64,000 nt of DNA, from assembly GCA_945827635.1 (NCBI GenBank), contig CALZOG010000002.1, forward strand, positions 1 to 64,000, given 5' to 3'. A program made the translations under genes and the position numbers. Each line of letters starts with the position of its first letter. The first letter of the stretch is position 1. Shown here in pieces: positions 3,869-62,090 of the stretch. Below the pieces are notes generated by a model. It did no database searches and was not told the origin of the DNA. It saw nothing but the letters and a program-made list of their open reading frames with translations. This DNA is from an uncultured Bacteroidales bacterium (lineage in GTDB: Bacteria; Bacteroidota; Bacteroidia; Bacteroidales; Paludibacteraceae).

Positions 3869-5377
3869 TTATCGGTGTTCAAGTAAAACGACGTTCTCTA
3901 CATGCTGCGTGTGTGGGAACATATCCACCGGTTGGACCTTGGCTACACGGTAGGTGCTGTCAAGCATGGCGAGGTCGCGCGCCTGGGTGGCGGGATTGCA
4001 ACTGACATACACGATACGCTGCGGCTCGGCGCGGAGAATAGTGGCGATCACATCCTCGTGCATACCGGCACGCGGCGGGTCAGTGATGATAATATCCGGG
4101 CGACCGTGCTCATGCAGGAAAGCGTCGTTGAGCACATCTTTCATGTCGCCGGCAAAGAACAGAGTGTTCGTTATGCCGTTGATCTCGGAGTTGACCTTGG
4201 CATCCTCGATCGCCTCGGGCACATACTCGATACCGATGACCTGCCGCGCCTGCCGCGCAACGAAATTGGCAATCGTGCCGGTGCCGGTGTAGAGGTCGTA
4301 GATGAGTGGGTTGAGCGTTGAGGGTTGAGCGTTGAGCGTTGATGGTTGAGCGAAGGCGAAGTCGCGGGCGACCTTGTAGAGCTCGTACGCCTGCTCGGTG
4401 TTCGTCTGGTAGAACGACTTGGGACCAACCTTGAACTGCAAGCCCTCCATCTCCTCGAAGATATGATCCTTACCGAAATAGACATGAATATCCTGATCGG
4501 CAATCGTGTCGTTCATCTTCAGATTCTCGACATAGAGCAGGGAGATGATCTCCGGGAACTCGCGGTGCAGGTACTCGAGTAGCGCCATGCACGGCTCGGT
4601 CACCTTCTCGCCGAAGGAGACAACCAGCATCACTTCGCCCTTGTGATTGTTGCGCAGCATAAGCGTACGGAGCTGTCCCTGGTGGGTGTGCTCGTTGTAG
4701 AACGTCAGTCCGTGCTCGCACGCAAACGTGCGTACGCCGTTGCGGATGCGGTTGTTGATATCCGGCATAAGACGGCAGGTATGTATATCCAGCACCTTGT
4801 CGAAGCAGTTGGGGATGTGAAAGCCAAGGCCATTTACTATTTGTTCATTTATTTGGTTATTTAGTGCTTTGAACTCGTCGGGTGAGAGCCACTTGCGATC
4901 GGAGGCGGAGAACTCGAGTTTGTTGCGGTACTCGTAGATATGCTTGCTGCCGAGTATGGGCGAGATCTCCGGCAGGGCGACCTTGCCTATGCGCGTGAGG
5001 TTATCCACCACCTGCTGCTGCTTGTAGCGCAGCTGCTCGTCGTAGGGCAGGATCTGCCACTTGCATCCGCCGCACGTGCCGTAGTGCGGGCACTGCGGCT
5101 CGGTGCGCCGGTCGGAATAAGAGACAAACCGCTCGACACGCGCCTCCATGAACGAGTGTTTCTTCTTTGTGACCTGCAGATCGACTACATCGCCGGGTAC
5201 GCAGTACGGCACGAAACAAACGATGTCGCTCGTGCCGCCCTCAGCACTATCACCCCGCTTCACGTTGTTTGCGGGGACCCCGCCGTTTGGCATAGGGATG
5301 CGTGCAATGGCTTTGCCTTCGGCACCGATACCGGTGATGGTGACGGATGGTATGAGAGGGAGATTCTTTTTTTTCAT
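3869..5377 (-). CDS. rlmD: 23S rRNA (uracil-C5)-methyltransferase RlmD/RumA family
   Basis: TRAM-like N-terminus, CPHYGTCGGCKWQ cluster, DLYTGTGTIANF, DPPRAGMHEDV, YVSCNPATQARDL; start set at MKKKNLPLIPSVTI (ORF extends to 5503). Confidence 0.92.
   Translation of the reverse strand: MKKKNLPLIPSVTITGIGAEGKAIARIPMPNGGVPANNVKRGDSAEGGTSDIVCFVPYCVPGDVVDLQVTKKKHSFMEARVERFVSYSDRRTEPQCPHYGTCGGCKWQILPYDEQLRYKQQQVVDNLTRIGKVALPEISPILGSKHIYEYRNKLEFSASDRKWLSPDEFKALNNQINEQIVNGLGFHIPNCFDKVLDIHTCRLMPDINNRIRNGVRTFACEHGLTFYNEHTHQGQLRTLMLRNNHKGEVMLVVSFGEKVTEPCMALLEYLHREFPEIISLLYVENLKMNDTIADQDIHVYFGKDHIFEEMEGLQFKVGPKSFYQTNTEQAYELYKVARDFAFAQPSTLNAQPSTLNPLIYDLYTGTGTIANFVARQARQVIGIEYVPEAIEDAKVNSEINGITNTLFFAGDMKDVLNDAFLHEHGRPDIIITDPPRAGMHEDVIATILRAEPQRIVYVSCNPATQARDLAMLDSTYRVAKVQPVDMFPHTQHVENVVLLEHR
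4310..4351. repeat. Heptad repeat GTTGAGN, 6 units (42 bp), inside rlmD CDS
   Basis: GTTGAGC GTTGAGG GTTGAGC GTTGAGC GTTGATG GTTGAGC; encodes QPSTLNAQPSTLNP. Confidence 0.95.
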
Positions 5378-5415
5378 AGGAAATGAATATTGACAAGTGA
5401 ACAATTTGACAGAAC

Positions 5416-8133
5416 TTACTTCAGGTAGTGCAAACAACTCCTGTACAGCGCCGGAAAATCCTCCGTGCTCTCCATGATGAACGGCAGCGCAATAAGGCGG
5501 CAATCGCCGTTGTAGGCTATGCCTGCCGTCATGCCGCTATCGAAGTACGTGCCGATGCCTACCGATCCGCGTGCCGGCAGCAGACCTTGTGGGTTCTCGC
5601 AACAGATGATATCGGCGTCAGGTTGCATCTTGAGTCGGGCGAGTTGCATAGCCAGCGTATGGTCGAACATCACTGTGCCGCACCTGGTGGCGTGGTCGCC
5701 GCGGTAGGTGTATCGCAACACCTCGCGGGTCAGGTCGCAGTTGCCGAGTGCTGCAGTTTCGCTGCCCAGGTACATCCCGGACATAAGAAGTTTGCCGCCC
5801 TGGCGTGCATAATCGACCAGTGCCGCGCGCAGCCCGGTGGGGAACATCTCGTACAAGGTGTCAGGCGTATCAGCCATACTTGTCTGCCTGAGTTCGGTAC
5901 GTTGCTTGCCGCAGATCAGATCCACAACGGTGTAACCGCGCAAGGCAGCGGTGTCGGTTATTGCCGCCGCCGAGGCGCTGCAATACGAGTAGCCTGACTC
6001 AGCGAGCACGCGCCCGTGCATAAGCGGATAGTCGCGTGTGTTGCCGGCGGTAAGCGCAAACTGCCTGTCGGCATACGAGGCACCCCAGCCGCACCTGTCG
6101 TCGGATTGCCACAGGCTGCTGCGCAGACAGTCGTACTGCTCGCCAACGAACGATATGTCCCGACCGTCCTGCACGGCAAAACTGTTCGGCACAATGCCGG
6201 CATACAGGCTGTCAACAAAGAAATCCGGCGCTGCCACGCGCGAGAAGTTGTTGATGATCATCACCGTGCCGTTGCTCTTCGGCGCAAGGTAGGCGCAGAG
6301 CATTTCTGACGGAAGGCTTATACCTCCGCGGTTGCCTGCCACGATGCGAAAATCGTAACGTATACCGCGGTTGGCAACAAAAGTGTAACGGTTGGCAGTA
6401 ACGCGTGTGCCGTTGTCCCAGTCGCCGGCTATAGTCTGTCCGTTCTGCGTACGCGTGCGACGCGTATATACAATATAGTATTTGGGCGTTGCTGTCGGCT
6501 CGAGCGGGTCGGCGGCAGGTTGCCAACTGAGCAGGATACTGTCGTGCGCCAGCCGGACGGCAGGAGCCTGTACGGGCAGAGGCTGTACCGTATAATCTTC
6601 GCCCCGTGAGGTGGCAAGGTACTTGAGTACACCTTTGTAAACGGCTCGTGCGACGGCGAACTTGACTTTCGGATCCAGCCCGAGTCGCATGTCGTTGAGG
6701 TTCTGGTGAGAAAGCATCTCCAGTAGGATAGTCGGCACGCGCGGTTGTCGTGCTTCGGCATAACCGGCGTTGCGCAGTCCGCGGCGGTTCCAGTTGGGCG
6801 CATACAAGGCGCGCAAGTCTTCCACGACCTGCGTCTGGACATAATCGCCCAGGTACCGGCAGTACAGTCGCGAGTCGCCCAGCGGCAGGGTGCGGCTCTT
6901 GCTGTCGTCACGGTCGTAATAGATGAGCAGCGTGCCGACAATCGAGTCACCGTTGCGTGTGCCGGCATCGGAGTGAATACCCATACACAGGTCGATAGGA
7001 ATACCGAGCCCCTCATCCTTGGGCGCGAGTTGTGAGCCGCCGAGCAGGTAATTGACCCACTGCCCGCGGCAGGCGTAGTCGTTGGTATAGGTGTTGTCAC
7101 CCTGCGTATAGTCTAGGATAGAGTCGGGAATACCTGCAAAATGCAAGTATTGTGTTGCGCCTACGGCATAGCGCGGCACGTTCGATGCCGAGTCCATTCC
7201 ACCGCCCAGGCGGATAGCGGCGATGTTCTCGCGCGGCGTGCCGACAGTGATGCGTGCCGCCTGCATCGGCGAGAACGCGTGCTTGCCTACATACACCCAC
7301 GTGCCCGCACCCATCTGCATGTTGACGGTATAACGGGTTGTTTGGTCCAGGTGCTCGATATCCAGCGCCGTACGCGGCGAGCCGGTGTGGCGGTTGTAGC
7401 GTATATATACGGCATACTCGCCTTCGGCAGGCACGATGGTTTCCGCTACGGTCTTGCCGTCCTGCTCGTGCATAGCCGTGCTGTCGATGATCACCATGGC
7501 GGTCTGCGTATCGCGCTCGCGCGGCTGGATAACCGTTGCACCGGCGTTCTCGAGCATCGGCACGAGGTATGGCATTGTGTAGGAGGATGTGAACAGGTCT
7601 TCGACCGTGGTCCATAGCCGTGCGCGCTGCCATAGCCAGCGGTCGCTGCGGTTGTTGTAGTACCAGCCGTGGCTGCCCCAGAGGGCAATGTGCCTGCCGT
7701 CCAGGCCGTCAGGGCACTTGTAGGGCAGGTCGGCGTTCTTGACAAGTTGCGGTACGGATGCAGGGACGTGCGCGCGGATGCCGGTCTTGTAGCGCATCGT
7801 GACGAGTTCGCCCAGTTCGTAGCCGTCGGAGTAAATCTGTATGTCGCCGTTGGCACTGCCGAACACAAGATTGCTCACGCGCCGACGCAAGTCCTGCAAC
7901 TCGGTAGGCGACAGGCTCAGACTGCTGAGCGTCTTGCAGGTATATATACGTGCCGTGCGGGATTTGGTGCGCACACTTTTGACGGTAACCTTGCCTACTT
8001 CTGCTTTGCTGTTGGCATACAGGCTCAAACTGTCCGACAACGCCTGCATAGGTATAGCTGATACGTGGAGCGAAATACTGAATAAGGCAATGATTGCAAG
8101 GTATATTTTATGCATTTTGGGGTATAATTTCAT
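5416..8133 (-). CDS. Secreted N-acetylmuramoyl-L-alanine amidase-like protein with golvesin/xanthan-lyase-type and fibronectin-III-like regions
   Basis: Signal peptide, amidase_3-like GIHSDAGTRNGDSIVGTLLIYY and VPTILLEMLSHQN, FN3-like PPVQAPAVRLAHDSILLSWQ region. Confidence 0.75.
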   Translation of the reverse strand: MKLYPKMHKIYLAIIALFSISLHVSAIPMQALSDSLSLYANSKAEVGKVTVKSVRTKSRTARIYTCKTLSSLSLSPTELQDLRRRVSNLVFGSANGDIQIYSDGYELGELVTMRYKTGIRAHVPASVPQLVKNADLPYKCPDGLDGRHIALWGSHGWYYNNRSDRWLWQRARLWTTVEDLFTSSYTMPYLVPMLENAGATVIQPRERDTQTAMVIIDSTAMHEQDGKTVAETIVPAEGEYAVYIRYNRHTGSPRTALDIEHLDQTTRYTVNMQMGAGTWVYVGKHAFSPMQAARITVGTPRENIAAIRLGGGMDSASNVPRYAVGATQYLHFAGIPDSILDYTQGDNTYTNDYACRGQWVNYLLGGSQLAPKDEGLGIPIDLCMGIHSDAGTRNGDSIVGTLLIYYDRDDSKSRTLPLGDSRLYCRYLGDYVQTQVVEDLRALYAPNWNRRGLRNAGYAEARQPRVPTILLEMLSHQNLNDMRLGLDPKVKFAVARAVYKGVLKYLATSRGEDYTVQPLPVQAPAVRLAHDSILLSWQPAADPLEPTATPKYYIVYTRRTRTQNGQTIAGDWDNGTRVTANRYTFVANRGIRYDFRIVAGNRGGISLPSEMLCAYLAPKSNGTVMIINNFSRVAAPDFFVDSLYAGIVPNSFAVQDGRDISFVGEQYDCLRSSLWQSDDRCGWGASYADRQFALTAGNTRDYPLMHGRVLAESGYSYCSASAAAITDTAALRGYTVVDLICGKQRTELRQTSMADTPDTLYEMFPTGLRAALVDYARQGGKLLMSGMYLGSETAALGNCDLTREVLRYTYRGDHATRCGTVMFDHTLAMQLARLKMQPDADIICCENPQGLLPARGSVGIGTYFDSGMTAGIAYNGDCRLIALPFIMESTEDFPALYRSCLHYLK

Positions 8134-17120: not shown

Positions 17121-17156
<36 letters not shown>

Positions 17157-36345: not shown

Positions 36346-37611
36346 TTATCTGGCAGTCTGGTCGTCTAATAGTATTCTGCTATACTCCCTCGCCAGACTG
36401 TCGTACGCCTGTTTCAGTTCTGCCGGTACAGGTTCGGCGGATGGCGACTCCAGTGTCAGCGGATTAACCGGTGTGCCGTTCTTCCATACGCGGAAGTCCA
36501 GATGCGGACCCGTACTTGCGCCTGTCGAACCCACGTAGCCGATTACATCGCCTTGCTTGACGTACTGACCGACCTTCAGCCCTTTGGCGTACTTCGACAG
36601 ATGCAGATAGGCTGTCTCATACGTGCTGTTGTGGCGAATCTTGATGGTATTGCCGCCACCGCCTTTGTAGGCGCGGAACGCCACTACGCCATCACCCAAT
36701 GCCACCACCGGAGTACCTGCAGGCGCAGCATAATCAACGCCCGTATGCGGACGAACAACGTGATATACAGGGTGCTTGCGCGCGTAACTGAAGTGCGAGG
36801 ATATGCGCTTGTAGTTCAGCGGCGCTTTCAGAAAAGTCTTCCTCAGACTGTTGCCTTGCTCGTCGTAGTAGTTGTTTATCTTCGTTGCAGGAATCGGCTC
36901 TGCCAGATACGGACTCAATTTTGCCGAATCAGCGTAGTATGCCGGCAACCAGCGCTTGCCGTGATAGAAATGTGCCGCATATATCCTGCCTATACCTACG
37001 CGTGTGGTATCAATGTACTGCTCGTCGTACAGCACACGCACGCTGTCGCCTTGCTGCAGGGCAAAGAAGTTAATCGTCCATGCATAAATCTCCGACAACT
37101 CCAACGCCAACTCCACCGGCAGATCCTGACTGCTGATAGCCTGCCATAGTGAGGAGGTGATAGTGAACTCCGCTTTCTTGCTATCTATACGCATAGGCAA
37201 TGTGTCGCGCCACACATACAGGCTGTCCTGTAGCGAGGCAATGACCGTCTCTCTGCGGCTGATCTTGTACGCGTAATAGCACAGTGCAGTATCGTTGCGG
37301 AACGCGTAATATCGCCCGCCCTCGCGTATAGCCGACAGTTCGGGGTGCTGCTTGAGTAGCGGTTGCATCGCACACCATTGCTTGCTGCTCAGGCCATGGC
37401 GACCCAGTATGCCTGACAGTGTTTCGCCCGCGTGCACGCGACACGTATCTATGGTATAATCATCTGCTGCAATGCCGTACACGTAACGCGGCTCAACATT
37501 TTCAACAGCCGCCTGCTCTTCTGCCTCGTCTTCACACGACGCAGACCGCCTGCCGCACGATACCATGCACAGCAGACCTACACAAAAAAATATAAACTTA
37601 GTAACTCTCAA
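36346..37611 (-). CDS. M23 family metallopeptidase lipoprotein (LysM-like N-terminus); apparent TTG start inside heptad repeats
   Basis: Lipobox MVSCG; HTGVDYAAPAGTPVVALGDGVV, HLSKYAKGLKVGQYVKQGDVIGYVGSTGASTGPHLDFRVW. Confidence 0.9.
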   Translation of the reverse strand: MRVTKFIFFCVGLLCMVSCGRRSASCEDEAEEQAAVENVEPRYVYGIAADDYTIDTCRVHAGETLSGILGRHGLSSKQWCAMQPLLKQHPELSAIREGGRYYAFRNDTALCYYAYKISRRETVIASLQDSLYVWRDTLPMRIDSKKAEFTITSSLWQAISSQDLPVELALELSEIYAWTINFFALQQGDSVRVLYDEQYIDTTRVGIGRIYAAHFYHGKRWLPAYYADSAKLSPYLAEPIPATKINNYYDEQGNSLRKTFLKAPLNYKRISSHFSYARKHPVYHVVRPHTGVDYAAPAGTPVVALGDGVVAFRAYKGGGGNTIKIRHNSTYETAYLHLSKYAKGLKVGQYVKQGDVIGYVGSTGASTGPHLDFRVWKNGTPVNPLTLESPSAEPVPAELKQAYDSLAREYSRILLDDQTAR

Positions 37612-37672
37612 CTCTCAACACTCAACTCTCAACCCTCAACACTCAGCTCTCAACTCTCAACCCTCAACTCTC
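37603..37672. repeat. Heptad repeat AACNCTC, 10 units, forming the GT/M23 junction
   Basis: Counted unit by unit. Confidence 0.97.
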
Positions 37673-38400: not shown

Positions 38401-38700
38401 GCAATCTATCTTCTATCAGCACCTTCAGGTGCGGTCAATCTTCTGTCAGCACCTTCAGTTGCGGTCTGTCTTCTGTCAGCACCTTCAGGTGCGGTCTGTC
38501 TTCTATCAGCACCTTCAGGTGCGGTCTGTCTTCTGTCAGCACCTTTAGTTGCGGTCTGTCTTCTATCAGCACCTTCAGTTGCAATCTATCTTCTATCAGC
38601 ACCTTTAGTTGCAGTCTATCTTCTATCAGCACCTTCAGGTGCGGTCTATCTTCTGTCAGCACCTTCAGGTGCGGTCTGTCTTCTGTCAGCAGCTCGGCTG
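38401..38700. repeat. 30-bp tandem repeat array (about 10 units) with internal palindrome GCACCTTCAGGTGC
   Basis: Units start every 30 bp from 38401; consensus (C/G)TCTRTCTTCTRTCAGCACCTTCAGGTGCG. Confidence 0.95.
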
Positions 38701-38710
38701 CGGTCTATTA

Positions 38711-39537: not shown

Positions 39538-39600
39538 CACTCAACACTCAACACTCAACTCTCAACCCTCAACTCTCAACACTCAACTCTCACCCCTCAT
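39538..39600. repeat. Heptad repeat CNCTCAA, 9 units, between MBL hydrolase and yidC, includes yidC stop
   Basis: Counted unit by unit. Confidence 0.97.
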
Positions 39601-42631: not shown

Positions 42632-42665
42632 TCAACCCCGCCCAACAGCGGGGTTGACTGTTTTT
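42632..42665 (+). terminator. Terminator of rpmB-rpmG operon
   Basis: TCAACCCCGC-CCAACA-GCGGGGTTGA then CTGTTTTT. Confidence 0.9.
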
Positions 42666-42673
42666 ATCTATCT

Positions 42674-42743
42674 GTCTATCCTCTATCCTCTATTATCTAT
42701 TGTCTATTATCTATTGTCTATTGTCTATTGTCTATTATCACTC
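42674..42743. repeat. Period-7 repeat (G/A)TCTATT, about 9-10 units
   Basis: GTCTATT/ATCTATT heptads counted from 42674. Confidence 0.9.
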
Positions 42744-50283: not shown

Positions 50284-50332
50284 GCTCAACTCTCAACTAT
50301 CAACACTCAACTCTCAACTCTTAACACTCAAC
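50284..50332. repeat. Heptad repeat (NCTCAAC, 7 units) in 5' leader
   Basis: GCTCAAC TCTCAAC TATCAAC ACTCAAC TCTCAAC TCTTAAC ACTCAAC. Confidence 0.95.
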
Positions 50333-50354: not shown

Positions 50355-53282
50355 ATGAAACGACTTCACTATCTGCTGCTCATCTGTCTGGTTGCTCTGT
50401 CACCCGTGACATACGCCGGATGGAATATACCTGTCACCAATTTCTCCGTAGCCGACTACTCTGCCGGCACGCAGAACTGGCAACTCCTCACCACCCGTAA
50501 CGGCTGGCTATATGCCGCTAACAACTACGGTTTACTCGAGTACGACGGCTCGCAATGGCGTATCTATGGCATGTATTACGGTAACCTGCCGCGCAGCATA
50601 GCAGCACTGGATGATAAGGCGATCTTCATAGGCGCAACCAACGACTTCGGCGTTTTCACACCTACGCCAATGGGCGATATGCGCTATACGTCACTCATGA
50701 CTGAAGATGTTTCTCCCGACTTCGGCGAGGTGTGGGATATTGAAGTAATTGGTCAGCAGCTGTATATCTTCACTCGTCACCGAATTATCGTGGCTGAATA
50801 CAGCGATGCAGACTCTATCTCGCTCAAGAATGTGCGTACTCTATCTACTGCCAGCCGCGTGTTCTGTGCCGAAGAGGTAGGAGGTGCTATCTATGTCGGC
50901 ACGGATGATGGTTTGTATCTGCTCACCGGCACACGCATGAACCGTATTCACGGCTCGGATATACTCCGCGGCTACGAGGTGCGTTGCATCCAGGCGCTGG
51001 ACGAACAGCGTTTGCTGATCGGCACCGATCTGGGTGGACTGTACGAGTACGACGGCACGCGTATCGCGCCCTTCCGCACCGAGGCAGATGCTTTCATTCG
51101 CAAGAACCAGCTCTACACGTTTGCCGTGCATGGCGACCACATAGCCTTGGGTACTGTGCTGCAGGGCATAGCCGTGGTGAATACTGACGGAAAGATCAGC
51201 CGCTATGTATCGCGCAAAGAAGGGCTGCAGAACAATACTATCCTCTCCATGGCATTCGACAGTCGCGACAACCTATGGGTCGGGCTTGATCAGGGTATAG
51301 ATTATGTGCAACTGGCTTCCATGCGCCAATATTTCAGCGACGAGCAGACGAACTTCGGCACCGGTTATGCCGTCCTGCGCGTGCAGCAAGGTGCAACAAC
51401 GCGTTACTATTACGGCACCAACCAGGCTCTGTACGTCAAGACGGATACCGGCAAACCCCTGCAACTCGTGGAGGGCAGTATGGGGCAGGTATGGAGCCTG
51501 AGCGAGATAGGCGGCACGGTGTTCTGCTGCCATAACAGAGGACTGTTCGTTGTGAACGGTGCGCGTGTGATCCCGCTCTGTACCGACGAAGGGTTCTGGA
51601 AGGTCCAACCGCTGCCCGACGGACGCGTGCTCGCCGGCACTTACTCGGGCTTTCGCGTGCTGAACAAGACCAACGGTCAGTGGCAGATAACTCGCGTCAA
51701 GGGCTTCGGCGATACTGCGTTCCGATGGCAGGTCGATCCCACAGGTGCAGTATGGGCGGTGGCTACAGCTGGACTCGTGCATCTGCAGTGGGCAGACGAA
51801 CAGACGTTTGACAGTCAGTCGGTTCACCCCTACAACGAGGCGCATGATTGGATCAATATCAGCCGCCTGGGCGAGCAGATCGTAATCAGCAGCCTTGACT
51901 ACTGCCGAGTGGTAGGTGCAGATGGCGTGCTGCGGCACGACGAGAACCTGATGAACAACTGCCTGGCAGGCGAGACCTATTATGCACAAATGCTGCAAGA
52001 CAGCCGCGGTAACAACCTCTTTATCATTGACGGTACCCTGTATATCCGCATACGTCAGGGCGAGACGTATATGCCTGCGCAACCGCTGTATAGCAATAAC
52101 CCCGATTTCGTTGGCGGGTTCGAGAATATTTACGAAACAGCCGACGGCTATATTATCGGTACGCTGCAGGGGTATAGTATGCTGCAGCCATCTGTTGTCA
52201 GCCGTCAGCCGTCCGAACCGTCCGTGCCGACCATCTATCTGCGCGAGGTGAGTATGGTTAATCACGACGGTAAAGCCGTGTACGGCGAGTCCTTAGCCAG
52301 TGCCGGTCTCTCAACGCTCAACGCTCAACATCTCTCAACTCTCAACTCTCAACCCTCAACTCTCAACGCTCAACTCTCAACGGAAGATAGCCCCACGGTG
52401 TTCGTGCTGCCGTACGACGTGTACGCATTGCGGTTCAGTTGCACTATCGACCGCACGCCGGCAGGTAACACGATGTACGCCTACCGCCTCTTGCCGCGAG
52501 ACAAAGAGTTCACACCGCTCACCCCGCGTGCGTACTACGAGTGTTCGTCGCTCGAGCAGGGAAGATATACGTTGCAGGTTAAGTGTCTGTCGGCTGCAGA
52601 GAATGCACTGCCTGCCGAGGTGACACGCTCCTGGCAGTTCGTTGTTCTGCCGCCCTGGTACATGACCTGGTGGGCGTACTGCCTGTTTGCCATACTTACT
52701 CTGCTTTGGCTGAGCGGAGTAGCCTACGTGCTGTACGTGATTGCCGACCGCTCGAAGCGCAAAGCGCTGCATGAGCAGCAACTGCGTATCCTGCAACTCG
52801 AGAACGACCGTACGCAGACACGGCTGCAAGCCAAGAGTCAGGAGCTGACGCGAATCATGCACGAGGAAGCCATCAAGCAGGAAGATCTGGCATTTGCCCA
52901 CGAGCAACTCGACAAGTGTCTGCACGACTTGCAGACGCATAATCTGAAGAAGGTGGAGGAGCGCCTGAACAACCTCAAGCAGCATATCACCTCCAAGGCC
53001 GGAGACGAGAGTATCGATTGGCAGCGCTTCGAGGAGAACTTCGACGAAGTGAACGCAGGCTTCTGCAAGCAACTCACCGAACGCTATCCGTGGATGAACA
53101 AACAGGAGCGCAAACTGTGCGTATATATCCACATGGGTTTACTCACCAAGGAGATTGCCCCCATGCTCGGATTATCCACCCGAGGCGTGGAAATGTTACG
53201 CTACCGCATGCGCTGCAAGATGGATCTCGACCCGCAGGCTAACCTCAAAGACTACCTCACTAAAATTACGTCAAACGCTTAA
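50355..53282 (+). CDS. Membrane-spanning sensor: beta-propeller (Reg_prop/Y_Y_Y-like) with cytoplasmic coiled coil and LuxR-type HTH, no kinase domain
   Basis: NNYGLLEYDGSQWRIY, DSRDNLWVGLDQGI, TM WWAYCLFAILTLLWLSGVAYVLYVI, C-terminal ERKLCVYIHMGLLTKEIAPMLGLSTRGVEMLRYRMRCKM. Confidence 0.85.
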   Translation: MKRLHYLLLICLVALSPVTYAGWNIPVTNFSVADYSAGTQNWQLLTTRNGWLYAANNYGLLEYDGSQWRIYGMYYGNLPRSIAALDDKAIFIGATNDFGVFTPTPMGDMRYTSLMTEDVSPDFGEVWDIEVIGQQLYIFTRHRIIVAEYSDADSISLKNVRTLSTASRVFCAEEVGGAIYVGTDDGLYLLTGTRMNRIHGSDILRGYEVRCIQALDEQRLLIGTDLGGLYEYDGTRIAPFRTEADAFIRKNQLYTFAVHGDHIALGTVLQGIAVVNTDGKISRYVSRKEGLQNNTILSMAFDSRDNLWVGLDQGIDYVQLASMRQYFSDEQTNFGTGYAVLRVQQGATTRYYYGTNQALYVKTDTGKPLQLVEGSMGQVWSLSEIGGTVFCCHNRGLFVVNGARVIPLCTDEGFWKVQPLPDGRVLAGTYSGFRVLNKTNGQWQITRVKGFGDTAFRWQVDPTGAVWAVATAGLVHLQWADEQTFDSQSVHPYNEAHDWINISRLGEQIVISSLDYCRVVGADGVLRHDENLMNNCLAGETYYAQMLQDSRGNNLFIIDGTLYIRIRQGETYMPAQPLYSNNPDFVGGFENIYETADGYIIGTLQGYSMLQPSVVSRQPSEPSVPTIYLREVSMVNHDGKAVYGESLASAGLSTLNAQHLSTLNSQPSTLNAQLSTEDSPTVFVLPYDVYALRFSCTIDRTPAGNTMYAYRLLPRDKEFTPLTPRAYYECSSLEQGRYTLQVKCLSAAENALPAEVTRSWQFVVLPPWYMTWWAYCLFAILTLLWLSGVAYVLYVIADRSKRKALHEQQLRILQLENDRTQTRLQAKSQELTRIMHEEAIKQEDLAFAHEQLDKCLHDLQTHNLKKVEERLNNLKQHITSKAGDESIDWQRFEENFDEVNAGFCKQLTERYPWMNKQERKLCVYIHMGLLTKEIAPMLGLSTRGVEMLRYRMRCKMDLDPQANLKDYLTKITSNA
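52309..52381. repeat. Heptad repeat NCTCAAC, 10 units plus a 3-bp interruption, inside the sensor CDS
   Basis: Encodes STLNAQHLSTLNSQPSTLNAQLST. Confidence 0.97.
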
Positions 53283-53329: not shown

Positions 53330-53361
53330 TTTGCAAATGTAAATTTATTTACGTAACTTTG
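53330..53361 (+). promoter_or_regulatory. Promoter of GH81 gene
   Basis: TTTG-N20-TAACTTTG. Confidence 0.75.
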
Positions 53362-53388
53362 CACCGGATTTCCACCATTTCACTCGAT

Positions 53389-56300
53389 ATGCGAAAAACA
53401 CTACTCATTCTACTACCGCTTTTAGCCGTTACCTATCTGTCTGTTTCTGCCCAGCAAGCCATCCGTTTGGGTAGTGGCTCGTATGCGTCGTTCGCTCCGC
53501 TCAGTGCCAGCCGCACCGACGAGCGCGGTGGCACTCAAGCTTATCAGATGGAGCATAGGCGTCTGTATTTGCCCGACTCGCTGCTTCAGCGGCTGGGCTC
53601 GCCCGACGGCAGCAAGCCCGGTACACTCGCTCTGCCCTCCAACGATTGGTGGACGCATGCACTAGTGAATCAGTGGACAGGTAAGATATGGATGTACCCC
53701 GGCTGGGTGGAAGCCACCGACCAGGGTTTGTCGATAGGCTACCCCGACCATTGGGAGGAAACAGGCTGCGAGGTGAAATGGCCTGAACCGCTTACCGCCT
53801 CGTTCGTTAATGCCGCTACTGGCAAGCGCTCCGCATTCACCGAAGCACTGGTGGACAGCTGGTCGGATTTCATGGTTTCATTTATCATGCATGATGGCGA
53901 TTCGTGGGTACGGGTAACGTGTGTACACGGTTCGCCCATTGTTTGGATCGAGGCGAGCGGCGTGAAGGTGAACGTCACGAACCCTGCTTTAGGCAGATAT
54001 GCCGTCGCGCAGACCGTAGCCGGCGGACGCCAGTGGACAACAGTAGGTATGCTCACGCAGGGAATAGATGCACAGAAGATAGCACAATACGCTCAACGTG
54101 TGCCGCGTAGCACGCGGGTCAACTATTCGTATAACGCAGCCAAGGCTTCGCTCAGTACGACGTTCAGCGTGCTGACTGAAGATATCAACTTGCAGGCCGC
54201 ACCTGCCGCTGCGCCTGTGATGATTGCTTTTCTCCCACACCACATATATTGCGACCGTGTGACGGTTAACGGCAATACGGACACTCCGGCATTTACCGGC
54301 GAATACCTCTCGCCGCGAGGCACGATGAAAGTGTTGGAGGGCAACAACTTCACGTTCAACTACACGGTGCACGGTTTTCTGCCGTTCTTCCCGAAGCCTC
54401 TGGAGTGGGCGGAAGGTTTTTCTGCTGACCGGATGCAGGCGCTCAACGCCGATTATGCTGCACGCGGCACGTTCGGCGGTGATACGTACTGGGGCGGCAA
54501 AGGCTTGACGCAAATGATGCATTACATGACTTTTGCCCTGCAGATGGGGGACACGGCTACGTTCCGCCTCGCCAAGCAGCGGCTCAAGGAGAACCTGGTT
54601 GATTGGTACACCTACACCCCGGGCGAACTGCGCAGGTACTTTGCGCGCTACAACCGCTGGGGGGCACTGGTCGGCTTCGATTGCTCGTACGACAGTGACA
54701 CGTTCAACGACCACCATTTTCACTACGGCTATTTCATCTATGCCTCGGCTGTGCTGTGCATGCTCGACGCGGATTTCCGCGAGCAGTACGGTGCTATCGT
54801 TCGCGAGGTGGCACGCGATTATGCCAACTGGGAAAGAATTGATAGTCAAAACTCAAAAGTCGAAAGCAATGAGGTGCTTGAGCCTTGGTTCCGCACCCTT
54901 GATCCGTATTGCGGACATTCGTTCGCAGGCGGCATGGGCAACGGCGGCAACGGCAATGGCCAAGAGTCAACCAGTGAGGCTATCCAAGGTTGGGGCGGCG
55001 TATGGATGTTAGGCGCAGCATTAGGTGACCAAGAGATGCTTGAAGCCGGAATATTCGGCTACACGCTCGAGACACGTGCTGCCGCAGAATATTGGTTCGA
55101 CCGCAAGCGCAGGAACATTGATTATACGAAATACAAGCACCCCTACTGCTGCAACCTCACCATGCAGGGCGTAGGCTGGTGGACATGGTTCTCGGGCGAC
55201 CCCGTGTGGATGCACTCGATACAATGGCTGCCCATTTCGCCGATACTGACGAACTTCTTCTGTGAAGATATTGACTTCACCCGTTGGGATTATACGCAGA
55301 TGTACCAAGGCAAAGAGGTGGGCGACTACGAGGCTGCCACGGGCGGCTTGGGCGATGAATCGGGCTTGGGCAACGTATGCCTGAGTTACCTGTCGCTGTT
55401 CGAACCGGACAGTGCCGCTCGCGTCTGGGACCGTTTGGATAAAGCCGGCAAACCCCTTGCCAAGAATCCTGATACAGGTGGTATAACCTATTGGTTGGCG
55501 CACAGCCACAAAGGCTTGGGCGAGAAGCGTTATGATATATTGTCGGATTGCGCGCTTGCATGCGCATACACCGATCCGGTGACCGGCAATACAACCTATT
55601 CCGTCTATAATACAACCGGTGCTCCGCTCACCGTACATTTCTTCGGTGCCGTGGACAAAACGCTGACCGTCAATCCCGGTCTGACTGTTACCGACGGCTT
55701 GCGCAAGCAGGAGATTGCCACCATAGCCGACGAACACGTTTCGGATGTGAAGGATGAATTGGCTTGGGATTTGCCTTATCCTAACCTGGCACTGGGCAAA
55801 CCTGTTACAGCCTCCGGTTACGAGAACGCCGGCACGAAACCTGAGGGCGTGAACGACGGCAAACTCGATACCCGCTGGGGATCAACGCACAAGGACAATG
55901 AGTATGTGACCATCGATCTGGGGCAGACCTGTTACATCGACCACCTTGTTCTTCGCTGGGAAACAGCGTATGCCTCTAAGTATAGTCTGGGATTATCCCG
56001 AAACGGTATTGATTGGACTACGATCACTCTTGCTTCTTCCGGCGGCACGGAACGCGTGAAGTTGGCTCAGTTGCTCATGGCGCAGGACATGGAGTCCAGA
56101 GGCCGGTATCTGCGTCTGACAGGTGTGGAGCGCGCCACGACGTACGGCACCTCGCTGTCCGAGATCGAGGCGTACGGACGTCCGCTTGAGGGCGATGCAA
56201 GCAAGGTGTTTGCCGTTGCTCTGGCAGCCACGGATACTGTGCTCACCGAGGGTCAATCCACCACACTCAGCGCCACGGCGTACAACGTGCAGGGCGAAGT

Positions 56301-57228
56301 GATTGCCGGCACGGCAACATACGCCATTGTCAGAGGTTCTGCACAGTTGCAAGATAGCCGCGTGACAACAACCGGTGCAGGCGAGGTGCTGGTGAGTGCC
56401 ACCGTACAAGGCGTGACAGCCACCCTCACCCTCGTCGTGCTCGAGGGCGAGAAGATAACAGGCGTAACTATCACGCCTGCCGAGGTAACAATGCCTGTAG
56501 GCGATCTGCAGGAGTTTGAAGTGAGTGCCGTCAACCAGTTCGGATTTGCCGCAGAGACCTGCCGCTACACCTATTTCGCCGAGGCGGAAGGCAACTTTAC
56601 GCAGACCTACTCCTGCCTGGGCGGTGAGGCTACAGCCACTATCCATGTGCAGCCGTACACATCAATGAACCTGGCGCTGAACAAACCTGTGATTGCCTCT
56701 TCATACGAGAACGCCGGCACGAAGCCAGAGGGCGTGAACGACGGCAAGATGGATACGCGTTGGGGATCGGCGCATAAGGATAATGAGTGGGTGGAGATCG
56801 ATCTGGGCGCATGCTATCTGCTGGAGAAAGTGCGGCTGGTGTGGGAGACAGCTTATGCCACCTCTTACGACCTAATGCTCAGCGGTGATGCAATAGATTA
56901 TGAGACCGTATATGCCGCCACCGGTGCCAAGGGCGGCACACAGACAATCACGCTGCCCGAAGGCAGCAAAGGTCAATACCTGAGACTGCTGTGCAAGACG
57001 CGCAGCACGGGCTACGGTTCATCGCTATACGAGATTGAGGTGTATGGATCGGGGCGCTGCGAACCGATAGTAATAACCGGCGTGGAAACAGTTGCCGACA
57101 GTGAGTACTCCGGCAATCAAAACCCGAATACAGGAAGTGCAGCCTGCAAACTTCTGCGCGATGGCAGGATATACATACAAAAAGATGGAATTTTTTACTC
57201 CATAACAGGCGAAAAAGTGCTGTTTTGA
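53389..57228 (+). CDS. GH81-type endo-beta-1,3-glucanase with two F5/8 type C (discoidin/CBM32-like) domains, Ig-like spacer and C-terminal tag
   Basis: RYNRWGALVGFDCSYDSDTFNDHHFHYGYFIYASAVL, GNGNGQESTSEAIQGWGGVWMLGAALGD; NLALGKPVTASGYENAGTKPEGVNDGKLDTRWGS twice. Confidence 0.85.
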   Translation: MRKTLLILLPLLAVTYLSVSAQQAIRLGSGSYASFAPLSASRTDERGGTQAYQMEHRRLYLPDSLLQRLGSPDGSKPGTLALPSNDWWTHALVNQWTGKIWMYPGWVEATDQGLSIGYPDHWEETGCEVKWPEPLTASFVNAATGKRSAFTEALVDSWSDFMVSFIMHDGDSWVRVTCVHGSPIVWIEASGVKVNVTNPALGRYAVAQTVAGGRQWTTVGMLTQGIDAQKIAQYAQRVPRSTRVNYSYNAAKASLSTTFSVLTEDINLQAAPAAAPVMIAFLPHHIYCDRVTVNGNTDTPAFTGEYLSPRGTMKVLEGNNFTFNYTVHGFLPFFPKPLEWAEGFSADRMQALNADYAARGTFGGDTYWGGKGLTQMMHYMTFALQMGDTATFRLAKQRLKENLVDWYTYTPGELRRYFARYNRWGALVGFDCSYDSDTFNDHHFHYGYFIYASAVLCMLDADFREQYGAIVREVARDYANWERIDSQNSKVESNEVLEPWFRTLDPYCGHSFAGGMGNGGNGNGQESTSEAIQGWGGVWMLGAALGDQEMLEAGIFGYTLETRAAAEYWFDRKRRNIDYTKYKHPYCCNLTMQGVGWWTWFSGDPVWMHSIQWLPISPILTNFFCEDIDFTRWDYTQMYQGKEVGDYEAATGGLGDESGLGNVCLSYLSLFEPDSAARVWDRLDKAGKPLAKNPDTGGITYWLAHSHKGLGEKRYDILSDCALACAYTDPVTGNTTYSVYNTTGAPLTVHFFGAVDKTLTVNPGLTVTDGLRKQEIATIADEHVSDVKDELAWDLPYPNLALGKPVTASGYENAGTKPEGVNDGKLDTRWGSTHKDNEYVTIDLGQTCYIDHLVLRWETAYASKYSLGLSRNGIDWTTITLASSGGTERVKLAQLLMAQDMESRGRYLRLTGVERATTYGTSLSEIEAYGRPLEGDASKVFAVALAATDTVLTEGQSTTLSATAYNVQGEVIAGTATYAIVRGSAQLQDSRVTTTGAGEVLVSATVQGVTATLTLVVLEGEKITGVTITPAEVTMPVGDLQEFEVSAVNQFGFAAETCRYTYFAEAEGNFTQTYSCLGGEATATIHVQPYTSMNLALNKPVIASSYENAGTKPEGVNDGKMDTRWGSAHKDNEWVEIDLGACYLLEKVRLVWETAYATSYDLMLSGDAIDYETVYAATGAKGGTQTITLPEGSKGQYLRLLCKTRSTGYGSSLYEIEVYGSGRCEPIVITGVETVADSEYSGNQNPNTGSAACKLLRDGRIYIQKDGIFYSITGEKVLF

Positions 57229-57277
57229 TTAAAAAATGAAAATAATTCCAGAAAATCAGATAAAAGGTGACGATTTG

Positions 57278-57309
57278 TTTGCAAAATTTCGAAATATTTC
57301 TTAATTTTG
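57278..57309 (+). promoter_or_regulatory. Promoter of second SusC/D locus
   Basis: TTTG-N20-TAATTTTG. Confidence 0.65.
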
Positions 57310-57349
57310 TAGAAAAATCTGATACACGAACACAAAAACATAATTCTAC

Positions 57350-60300
57350 ATGAAAAAACTACTCTTGTTTTGTGCAATGGTATTTGCCGCGGTGACGGTT
57401 TCAGCCGACGTTATTACCGGTGTGGTAATGGCGGAAGGTGAGCCCGATCCGATTATCGGCGCAAATATCATGGTAAAGGGTACGACCAACGGTACGATTA
57501 CCGACATCGACGGCAATTTTTCTTTGCAGGCCAAGGTGGGTGATGTATTGGTAGTGTCGTACATGGGTTATAAATCGCAGGAGGTGAAGGCAACCGCCTC
57601 ACCGATGCGTATCACTCTCCAGCCTGACAACGTGATGTTGGAGGAGGTCGTAGCCATCGGTTACGGTACAATGAAAAAGTCCGACTTGACAGGTGCTGTA
57701 GCTTCAGTCAAAGCTGAAGAGTTGCAGAAGACACCTCTTGCAACAGTAGATCAGGCGCTGCAGGGAAAAGCAGCCGGTGTTACCGTCAATGCCAATTCCG
57801 GTCAGCCGGGTGCAGCCGCCGAAGTGCGTATCCGTGGTATTGGTTCAGTCAAATCAGAATCAACGCCAATCTATGTTGTGGATGGCGTTGTGCTGAAGGA
57901 TATCAGCTTCTTGACGCCGACAGACATCGCTTCGATGGAAATCATGAAGGATGCATCATCGACAGCCATCTACGGTAGCCAGGCCGCCAATGGTGTTATC
58001 TTGATCACAACCAAGTCGGGTAGTAAGGATCGTAAGGCCGGCGTGAGCTTCAATGCATATTGGGGCTTGCAGAACAGATGGCGCAAACTGGATGTGATGA
58101 ACGCCATGGATCAAGCAGAAACCGAAGTGCTGATGTCCGGTGGAGCCAAAGCTATCGGTAACTGGAACAAAGGCTTCAATACGTGGTGGAAAAAGACGAA
58201 TAATGCCAGTGGTGTCAATCCCTATTATCCCGTAAACTTCGATTATGCCGAATATGCAGCAACCGGCGGTACAGATTGGCAGGACGAAGTATTTCACAAG
58301 AATGCGCTGGTGCACAATTACAGCTTGTCCGTTGATGGCGGCGGTGATTGGGGATCGTATCTGTTTAGTGCCAGCTATTTCAACCAAGATGGTACGCTGC
58401 TGGGTAGTAATTATGAGCGTCTGACGTTGCGCGTAAATACCAATTTCAATGTGCGCAAATGGTTGCGGATAGGTGAGAACTTGTCATTCTCTACCAGCCG
58501 TTCCCGCAATGCGATGAACAATAATGCATCCCCACAGGCATCGGTGTTATCGGCAGCATTGGCTATGGCTCCGTGGGATCCGGTATATTATCCCGAGGAT
58601 GCCGTAAACGGTTTAGGCGAGAAGATTGGCGGTCAGCCATCTGCTGCGTCAAACTTTACGAATGTAGTCAATCCGATGTCCATGATCTATAATACGGAAC
58701 CAAACAACAGAGTACAACGTTGGGTGGGAGATATCTTTATCGAGATCAAGCCGGTGAAAGGTTTGACTATTCGCCCGTCGTTGAGCATGGATTTGAGCAA
58801 TAATATGGATCGCACGTTCAATTATGCGTATCGTTATTCCAATGCCGACTATCGTGAGCACAATTCAGTAGGTGCCGGCATGGCTCGCTACATGACATTG
58901 ACCAATGATAACGTGATCACCTATTCGCGTGATATAGAGAAGCACAGCTTTTCTGTCATGGCAGGTGAGACGATGCAGCAATATGATTATTATAGTGTAA
59001 GTGCAGGCGGGCAGGATATAGTCAATATCGACCCCAAAAACTGGTATATCTTCAATACCAAGAACGACTCAACCCGTACCGAAGGTGATGCAGTAGCGCG
59101 TACGCGCCGTTTGTCGTTCTTCACGCGTTTGCATTATAGTTACGACAATCGTTATATAGCAACGTTCAATTTCCGTGCTGATGCCTCTTCTCGCTTCAAA
59201 AAGAGCGAAAAAGGGGTGTGGGGGTATTTCCCGTCAATGGCCTTGGCGTGGCGTATCAATCAAGAGTCGTTCCTGGAGAGTTCATCTAGTTATTTGGACA
59301 ACTTGAAATTGCGCTTTGGCTGGGGGCAGGTAGGCAACGACCAAGTAAGCGAGTCGGCATTCGTGCAATCCATCGAGACCCCGGGACCCTATTTCGTGGG
59401 ATATATTCTGGGCGACCAACTGGTGCCCGGTGCAGCAGTCTTGACATTGGTGAACGAGAACGGTCGTTGGGAAACCAATGAGCAATGGAATCTGGGCTTG
59501 GATTTCGGTTTTTGGAATGGAATGTTAAGCGGAACACTCGAGGGCTATATTCGTGATACCAAAGATGCTATCCTGTCAGTGAATGCACCGGCTCACGTGG
59601 GTAACCATTGGGCAATGTCAGCCAATCTGGGTACAGTGCGGAACATGGGTGTGGAGCTGACGTTAGGGCACCAGAACAAGGTCGGAGATTTTGAATACGG
59701 CATCAATGGCAATATATCTTTTGCCAAAAATAAAGTAACTCACATGAATGGCGGTAGTGCCGATTATGGCGACCGCACCAAGACAGATGAGGGGCTGCCG
59801 GTACGTTCGTTTTGGGGATATAAATATCTGGGTATATACCAATCTGATGCAGAGGCAGCAGCTCATTTGCCTAACTCCACGAACATTGTTAATGAAGGCG
59901 ACTCGAAGTATGAGGATGTCAATGGTGACGGCAAGATTGATGAGAATGACTGCATGGTAATCGGTAATCCGTTCCCATGGTTGACCGGAGCGTTGACCTT
60001 CAATCTCGGTTGGAAAGGTTTGGACTTCAGCATCAATTTCCAAGGTGTATATGGCAACCAGATTTATAATGCATTGCGCGAGCGTCTGGAGGGTACAGGT
60101 CAGACTGCAACATTGAGTGCAGCGATGAAAGATGTACACATCTACTACAACCAAGACAAGCGTGATGCTATGAACGATGCGGGTATTGATTGGATGGGAT
60201 ATATGGATAAATATGCAGGCTCGATACCTAATCCTCATGGTAATTCGTTGAATGCCGCCAACTCGTCGCGGTTTGTAGAAAGCGGTGCATATCTGCGCCT

Positions 60301-60505
60301 GAAAGATTTGACATTGGGCTACACTTTGCCGAAGAAATATAGCCAAAAGGCATACATAGATCGTGTACGTGTATATTTTACGGCAAGCAATCTGTTGACT
60401 CTTACCGGCTACACCGGATATGATCCCGAAGTAGGCGGCGGAGTGGATTATGGTAACTATCCGCAGAGTCGTACATTTATGTTCGGTGTCAATTGTGACT
60501 TTTAA
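57350..60505 (+). CDS. SusC/RagA family TonB-linked outer membrane protein
   Basis: GVVMAEGEPDPIIGANIMVKGTTNGTITDIDGNFSL; EVRIRGIGSVKSESTPIYVVDGVV. Confidence 0.95.
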   Translation: MKKLLLFCAMVFAAVTVSADVITGVVMAEGEPDPIIGANIMVKGTTNGTITDIDGNFSLQAKVGDVLVVSYMGYKSQEVKATASPMRITLQPDNVMLEEVVAIGYGTMKKSDLTGAVASVKAEELQKTPLATVDQALQGKAAGVTVNANSGQPGAAAEVRIRGIGSVKSESTPIYVVDGVVLKDISFLTPTDIASMEIMKDASSTAIYGSQAANGVILITTKSGSKDRKAGVSFNAYWGLQNRWRKLDVMNAMDQAETEVLMSGGAKAIGNWNKGFNTWWKKTNNASGVNPYYPVNFDYAEYAATGGTDWQDEVFHKNALVHNYSLSVDGGGDWGSYLFSASYFNQDGTLLGSNYERLTLRVNTNFNVRKWLRIGENLSFSTSRSRNAMNNNASPQASVLSAALAMAPWDPVYYPEDAVNGLGEKIGGQPSAASNFTNVVNPMSMIYNTEPNNRVQRWVGDIFIEIKPVKGLTIRPSLSMDLSNNMDRTFNYAYRYSNADYREHNSVGAGMARYMTLTNDNVITYSRDIEKHSFSVMAGETMQQYDYYSVSAGGQDIVNIDPKNWYIFNTKNDSTRTEGDAVARTRRLSFFTRLHYSYDNRYIATFNFRADASSRFKKSEKGVWGYFPSMALAWRINQESFLESSSSYLDNLKLRFGWGQVGNDQVSESAFVQSIETPGPYFVGYILGDQLVPGAAVLTLVNENGRWETNEQWNLGLDFGFWNGMLSGTLEGYIRDTKDAILSVNAPAHVGNHWAMSANLGTVRNMGVELTLGHQNKVGDFEYGINGNISFAKNKVTHMNGGSADYGDRTKTDEGLPVRSFWGYKYLGIYQSDAEAAAHLPNSTNIVNEGDSKYEDVNGDGKIDENDCMVIGNPFPWLTGALTFNLGWKGLDFSINFQGVYGNQIYNALRERLEGTGQTATLSAAMKDVHIYYNQDKRDAMNDAGIDWMGYMDKYAGSIPNPHGNSLNAANSSRFVESGAYLRLKDLTLGYTLPKKYSQKAYIDRVRVYFTASNLLTLTGYTGYDPEVGGGVDYGNYPQSRTFMFGVNCDF

Positions 60506-60521
60506 TTAGGAGGGTGAGAAT

Positions 60522-62090
60522 ATGAAAAAAGCAACTTATATATTTCTGACTATTTGCATGTTTGCTATGACGGGATGTGATTGGGTATCAGAACCCACTC
60601 CCGGTGTGAGTCAGTTGTCGGATTATTTCGTGTCAGGGCAAGCTTGTATCTATAATGTCAACGCCGACTATGTGCCTCTAGCGTGGGAGTTCAATAATAC
60701 GTACTATAGCGAGTGGTTCATAGGTGATGTAATGTCTGATGATGCATTAAAGGGCGGTCAGAACACATCTGATATGGCGGCAGCATACCAGTTGGAGAAC
60801 TTCAAGTCCAATGCCGACAACGAAATTGCAGAGGAATTCTTCAAAGCCCAATATGAAGGTATAGCTCGATGCAATTTGTCGTTGAACTATATACCTACTG
60901 TGGCATGTGACTCGGATATGAACGAATCGCTCAAACAACGCCTGATAGGCGAGTGCTATTTCCTGAGAGCATATTACTATTTCCGTTTGGTTCGTACGTA
61001 TGGCGGTGTGCCGCTGTCGTTGGGGATAGAGAATAGTGACGAATACTGGAATCGTGCCCGCTCAAGTGCGGATGAGGTGTACGCTCAAATCGTATCTGAC
61101 CTTGAGAATGCCGAGTCGCGTCTGTGGAACAAAAGTAAGACAGGTGGCGCAGACATGGGACGTGCAACCAAAGGTGCTGCGCAAGCAATGCTGGTGAAGG
61201 TCTATATGTACATGCACAACTACGAGAAAGCTAAGCAGTGGGGTGACAAGTTCCTAACTGAACAAGCATCCGAGTACAGTCTTGTGCCCGATTTTGCGAG
61301 CAACTTTACCCTCTCCGGCGAGAACAATGCAGAGTCTATTTTTGAGATTCAATACGCCAACGAGGCAACCTCCGACTATGGGACAGGCAATGGCTCTACT
61401 CGCGGTACATTCACTACGGTATTGACCCGTTCGCGTTCCACGAATATGGGGGATGAAGGTTGGGGATTCAACAAGCCAACTCATAACCTCTATAACGAGT
61501 ATGAAGAGGCTGATTCGCTTCGCAGGGATGCAACAATCATCTTGCTGGACGCAGATCATCTTGGGGATCAAGATACCTATCTGGGTACCTCTTACTTGAA
61601 TCGCAAGACAGGACTCTATACCGCCGATGGTACAGGTTATGCGTATAAGAATGCACACAACACCCGAGGCGTGCTCAACAACAAGCAGATTCGTTTGGCA
61701 GACCTGTATCTGCTGTATGCAGAAGCATGCCAGGAAACAGGCGATGAAGCTACCGCCATCATCTATCTGAATAAAGTGCGCGACAGAGTCGGTTTGGTCC
61801 CTTATCCGGGTTACAGTTTCAAGGTGAACGGAACTGAAATCAGTTCGCCGACCTTGCAGGAGGCTATCCGTCACGAGCGCCGTATGGAGCTGGCGATGGA
61901 GGGGCATCGTTGGTTCGATCTGTGCCGTTGGGGAGTAGCATACGAGGTGATGACCGCTTATATGGCGCAGGAGGATCCGGAGGCAAAAGCTGAAATGCAG
62001 CCGTTTATCAAGGGTGTGCATGAGTTGCTCCCGATTCCTAACAAACAACGTCAATTAAATAGTTTATTGGATCAAAACCCGGGATATTAA
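60522..62090 (+). CDS. RagB/SusD family nutrient uptake lipoprotein
   Basis: Lipobox MTGCDW; LYLLYAEACQETGDEATAIIYLNKVRDRVGL; RHERRMELAMEGHRWFDLCRWG. Confidence 0.95.
   Translation: MKKATYIFLTICMFAMTGCDWVSEPTPGVSQLSDYFVSGQACIYNVNADYVPLAWEFNNTYYSEWFIGDVMSDDALKGGQNTSDMAAAYQLENFKSNADNEIAEEFFKAQYEGIARCNLSLNYIPTVACDSDMNESLKQRLIGECYFLRAYYYFRLVRTYGGVPLSLGIENSDEYWNRARSSADEVYAQIVSDLENAESRLWNKSKTGGADMGRATKGAAQAMLVKVYMYMHNYEKAKQWGDKFLTEQASEYSLVPDFASNFTLSGENNAESIFEIQYANEATSDYGTGNGSTRGTFTTVLTRSRSTNMGDEGWGFNKPTHNLYNEYEEADSLRRDATIILLDADHLGDQDTYLGTSYLNRKTGLYTADGTGYAYKNAHNTRGVLNNKQIRLADLYLLYAEACQETGDEATAIIYLNKVRDRVGLVPYPGYSFKVNGTEISSPTLQEAIRHERRMELAMEGHRWFDLCRWGVAYEVMTAYMAQEDPEAKAEMQPFIKGVHELLPIPNKQRQLNSLLDQNPGY

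Follow-up and report, generated by a model that had tools for sequence, protein, structure and literature searches.

Tandem NCTCAAC heptads lie in frame in a predicted disordered loop of a Bacteroidales regulator and in housekeeping genes of the same genome

Introduction

The regulator gene beside a glucan locus in a rumen Paludibacteraceae genome carries a tract of NCTCAAC heptads, which is quite probably a lineage-specific copy of a dispersed repeat family, lying in a disordered loop of the protein and kept because it is in frame. The family occurs genome-wide and has in-frame copies in housekeeping genes, other short repeats take its place at the same protein loops in related species, and length changes inside genes are filtered for multiples of three. 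We infer that the tract has no switching role, and that the repeats would have originated by unit slippage or by insertion of short repeats.

The window is the whole stretch of 64,000 nucleotides that was analysed. It belongs to a metagenome-assembled genome (MAG; G000) of 2.07 Mb in 121 contigs, 86% complete, which was compared with a 95%-identical sister species (G007) and with other members of the genus.

The repeat tract and its host regulator

The tract was first described in a sequence-only reading as ten NCTCAAC units with a 3-bp interruption inside a coding sequence, and direct reading of the window sequence agrees exactly. It spans 73 bp (52309-52381, +), opening with three units (52309-52329; N = T, G, G), continuing with the interruption ATC (52330-52332) and ending with seven units (52333-52381; N = T, T, T, C, T, G, T). 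The tract is impure as well as interrupted, with at most three identical units in a run. Its translation, STLNAQHLSTLNSQPSTLNAQLST, is in frame within a 975-aa ORF (50355-53282). The features of the regulator and its surroundings are as follows.

50285..50332, + strand: related array in the leader of the regulator gene, 20 bp upstream of its ATG region
50355..53282, + strand: regulator coding sequence, 975 aa, with signal peptide-like start, Reg_prop propeller, Y_Y_Y sandwich, predicted transmembrane (TM) helix, coil and LuxR-type helix-turn-helix (HTH)
About 52190..52215, + strand: neighbouring regulator linker of GTCAGCC heptads
52309..52381, + strand: NCTCAAC tract (3 units, ATC, 7 units), regulator residues 652-676
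53359..62090, + strand: glucan locus beside the regulator (GH81, SusC, SusD)
53359-57228, + strand: GH81
57350-60505, + strand: SusC
60522-62090, + strand: SusD

Matches to Reg_prop and Y_Y_Y place the tract roughly between the propeller and the Y_Y_Y-like domain, as had been proposed. The C-terminal HTH (residues 904-970, a weak match) resembles those of response regulators, and a long predicted helix at residues 768-797 is taken as the TM segment. In an AlphaFold2 model, whose loop assignment depends on an alignment of 14 sequences, the tract residues fall wholly within a loop (637-682) with pLDDT below 50, flanked by strands at 627-635 and 682-685. The tract is thus predicted to sit in a disordered, length-tolerant loop.

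Hits other than the sister species carry the names Paludibacteraceae or Bacteroidales, and several come from rumen and gut. Full-length orthologues (n = 11) differ in length by -114 to +45 bases, all in threes. Among the orthologues the NCTCAAC tract was found only in this genome and the sister species, where the homologous codons also contain the ATC interruption and the tract is more degenerate, yet in frame. Between these two genomes dN/dS is 0.027/0.194, or about 0.14, a sequence comparison which shows that the gene is under purifying selection. No frame-shifted orthologue was seen among those checked, which sample species rather than strains. The leader array is net 20 bp shorter in the sister species between anchors, and the linker at about 52190-52215 has RTCAGNN heptads in several orthologues. 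The tract is one of 44 arrays in the genome, with a second array in the leader and another heptad family in the adjacent linker, none of which formed part of the first description.

GH81 directly adjoins the regulator in five relatives, the sister species included, and SusC/D homologues lie downstream in eight. The SusC/SusD pair (57350-62090) has 92/87% identity to that of another congener (L063) and only 59/49% to the sister species, while the GH81 beside it has 95% identity to the sister species; judged by these identities, the pair appears to be a swapped one.

A genome-wide family of heptad arrays

The three-unit pattern CTCAACNCTCAACNCTCAAC has 147 matches in the genome, compared with 5 for a reversed control, and 19 in the window, compared with none in 100 dinucleotide shuffles. 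In the stretches retrieved around these matches they form 44 NCTCAAC arrays, of 3-17 units and 21-127 bp. Tandem 7-nt units occur in many arrays, far beyond chance, as in genome-wide heptanucleotide repeats of the LSSR/STRR-like kind. Three-unit matches number 88 in the sister species and 27 in G001; in most of the genus there are few or none, and the pattern is absent from the 24 genomes of other families. GTCGANN forms a second repeat family, which has 100 matches in this genome and occurs in 83/178 congeners.

Four further NCTCAAC arrays in the window illustrate the positions that such arrays take.

4310..4351, - strand: array in frame in rlmD (ORF 3869-5503, -), with a GC palindrome at those codons in the sister species
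17128..17155, + strand: intergenic array, 4 nt upstream of an ATG
37606..37668, + strand: array antisense to its genes, at the upstream gene's stop
39539..39587, + strand: array antisense to its genes, 9 nt past the upstream stop

The sister copy of the array at 39539-39587 is equal in length, and its units differ mainly at N. Other repeats are also found in the window. A different heptad array, TCTATTR (42664-42739), is shifted towards TCTTTTG in the sister species, and a 30-bp tandem repeat of about 10 copies (38405-38708), a VNTR-like intergenic array, is 211 bp shorter there. Relative to the window, the sister species carries about 9 kb of additional sequence at about 48820.

In-frame arrays in other genes

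In at least ten cases an array is in frame inside a gene that has family matches or clear domain sequence on both flanks. The host genes include the regulator, rlmD, a SusC-like receptor (L107), folC (L112), a MATE transporter (L113), an RND permease (L115), leuS (L127), rlmN (L133), an acyltransferase (L136) and a carboxymuconolactone-decarboxylase/cupin protein (L138). Two further likely hosts are a FemAB-like gene (L130) and a THUMP-like gene (L139). Dispersed repeats are therefore found in frame in unrelated housekeeping genes (leuS, rlmD, rlmN, folC and others), and in RlmD and LeuS the inserts align as extra residues relative to solved structures. Gene calls over arrays rested on ORF spans together with family matches, a short-window codon score being too weak alone. 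Long ORFs over the arrays at L108, L121 and L125 had no such support and were dropped as intragenic cases, and at L128 and L141 the array precedes the start of rlmH and of an nhaC-type gene.

All arrays inside genes are in the sense orientation, because the antisense unit GTTGAGN contains TGA. Since 7 is coprime to 3 and the unit has no stop in the sense direction, a sense array can be read through in any of the three frames, and it can therefore sit in a coding region if its net length is a multiple of three.

Different repeats occupy the same loops in different species. The LeuS loop after the anticodon-domain HRC motif has NCTCAAC units in this genome and the sister species. G167 has GTCGAAA heptads there, G175 a GGGTTAGCGGATTAG-type repeat, and G191 and G094 have GC palindromes, while the remaining species covered have no repeat. 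A second LeuS loop has GTCGAAA heptads in this genome and a palindrome in the sister species only. The RlmD loop has NCTCAAC here and a palindrome in the sister species; G114 has a short insert, and elsewhere the loop holds nothing. As a side observation, at least three separate loops of LeuS in this genome carry short-repeat insertions, one of NCTCAAC and two of GTCGAAA; congeners (orthologues L142-L158) lack each of these or have something else in its place.

The GC palindrome is itself a dispersed family in the sister species, with 20 matches compared with none for the control, and one match in G000. A search with PF01797 for a possible mover gave only weak matches in both genomes. One ORF (L172:799-2052, -, contig C5 of G000) has a weak Y1_Tnp match and a PDHFHGIL motif, and the sister species has a match similar to it; this ORF is possibly a REP-associated transposase and a candidate mover of the palindrome.

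Length change and the frame filter

Homologous arrays of this genome and the sister species were paired by their flanks; L131, whose right flank is itself repetitive, was excluded from the length statistics. The samples are small (8 paired arrays in genes), and inside genes all six non-zero length differences (+45, +3, -15, -63, +21, -60) are multiples of three, compared with 3/12 between genes (Fisher p = 0.009). Between genes, six of the 12 non-zero differences are exact multiples of 7, that is, changes in unit number between relatives. Arrays therefore change by units, and genes keep only the frame-preserving outcomes. The history behind this is probably one in which arrays gain and lose units and swap with other short repeats over species-level time, with selection purging frame-breaking lengths from genes and leaving intergenic lengths free.

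Conserved core, free position and placement

Between the two genomes, 16/31 units in genes and 23/57 units between genes carry a different base at N, and the corresponding figures for core positions are 2/186 and 17/342. This contrast of 40-52% with 1-5% is partly built in and inflated, since the search pattern for arrays left N unconstrained and shuffled units exchange nothing but N variants. TRF, which makes no use of that pattern, finds period-7 arrays in which 62/113 mismatches fall in one column (simulated 42.1, sd 2.5; 0/20000 as high); the TRF tiling of the regulator tract (52308) was omitted from this test, since ATC breaks its register. The same pile-up is seen for RTCAGNN arrays. Whether or not an array is coding, its heptads keep a conserved core and leave one or two positions free to vary.

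This pattern raises the alternative that the heptads are recognition sites at the nucleic-acid level, for an RNA- or DNA-binding protein or through an effect on translation near starts and stops, with the copy in the regulator a by-product or a weak site. Placement, based on automatic gene ends, fits such a role, as 6/6 sense intergenic arrays are located 4-10 nt upstream of an ATG and 18/20 antisense arrays are closer to the upstream stop (p = 0.013). TAACTGA arrays before starts have been given a similar reading (PMC4679880). However, the placement bias is partly a passive filter, because the antisense unit carries TGA and survives only after a stop. Arrays are also freely lost or replaced between species, and the binder is only putative. 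We therefore consider recognition sites an unlikely account of the tract. Neutral insertion alone, for its part, does not explain the core-plus-free-position structure or the placement at starts and stops.

Phase variation and artefact as alternatives

Phase-variable simple sequence repeats in coding sequences have a tandem unit that is not a multiple of three, so a change in unit number shifts the frame. The NCTCAAC tract shares this property, and it was first put forward as a contingency locus in which unit slippage would switch the regulator, and thus the adjoining GH81-SusCD locus, on and off at a useful frequency. The frame geometry of that proposal is sound: with one or two units more or fewer the regulator ends at 673-760 aa, without TM segment and HTH, and with three units more or fewer it keeps its frame. 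Whole-unit changes between species also occur, as shown above. The switch itself fares badly. An impure, interrupted tract slows slippage, and unlike phase-variable coding repeats this one has no identical run above three and belongs to a family with housekeeping hosts, where an OFF state in leuS, rlmN, rlmD or folC would be costly or lethal. The degenerate sister copy still in frame, the lack of off-frame alleles among the species-level orthologues checked and the in-gene changes confined to multiples of three all weigh against it too, and we regard it as very improbable, although rare switching may occur in a population that is mostly ON.

That the tract is an assembly artefact or the gene a pseudogene is barely conceivable: the MAG is fragmented and incomplete, but a separate MAG (G007, RUG324) carries a homologous tract, ATC interruption included, at the same codons, and the ORF is open in both genomes under the constraint measured above.

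Relation to known repeats

The preferred reading, an in-frame copy of a dispersed family, can be set beside three known systems. TAACTGA heptanucleotide arrays are found in Beggiatoaceae, cyanobacteria and five Bacteroidetes including Paludibacter propionicigenes (MacGregor 2015, PMC4679880). Like NCTCAAC, they are genome-wide tandem heptads, mostly intergenic and often right before a start codon or at a stop, with stops in one orientation and the other open, copies near essential genes and indels in 7-nt steps between relatives. The NCTCAAC unit differs in sequence and has a free N; ten or more of its arrays are in frame deep within genes, and several heptad families and palindromes alternate at the same sites.

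G-rich heptamer repeats, GGGANTN in Xanthomonas and GGGGAYT in Nostoc (PMC4692102), share the conserved core with one or two free positions and a similar polarity near starts and stops. NCTCAAC/GTTGAGN lacks G-tracts, so a quadruplex is not expected, and in-frame intragenic use is prominent here.

Rickettsia palindromic elements are selfish repeats that sit in frame in housekeeping genes (Ogata 2000, summarised in PMC10969869). NCTCAAC arrays work like these elements, being likewise scattered over unrelated housekeeping genes with the frame kept, but are not such elements: the former are tandem heptads of 21-127 bp without palindromy and open in all sense frames, the latter are palindromic, about 150 bp long and marked by a conserved peptide. 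A literature search of partial coverage brought up no account of essential proteins in which tandem heptads and palindromes replace one another at the same loops, and for in-frame repeat insertions in Bacteroidales it gave nothing closer.

Implications

A more far-reaching idea, which we hold to be rather doubtful, is that a directed process inserts interchangeable short repeats (several related heptads and GC palindromes) into core proteins of this genus at fixed loop sites. The heptad core would be recognised as nucleic acid whether or not it is coding, and the repeats would thereby be a continuing source of loop insertions. The core-plus-free-position structure, which is also present in the unrelated Xanthomonas and Nostoc heptads (PMC4692102), points to a cause beyond neutral insertion.

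The tract also carries a caution, as a non-triplet tract in a coding region need not mean phase variation. A story about a switch at a single locus becomes a genus-wide one, in which essential proteins have several repeat types alternating at the same loops and a frame filter is visible. The genus offers a natural series in which the origin, spread and tolerance of short repeats inside proteins can be studied.
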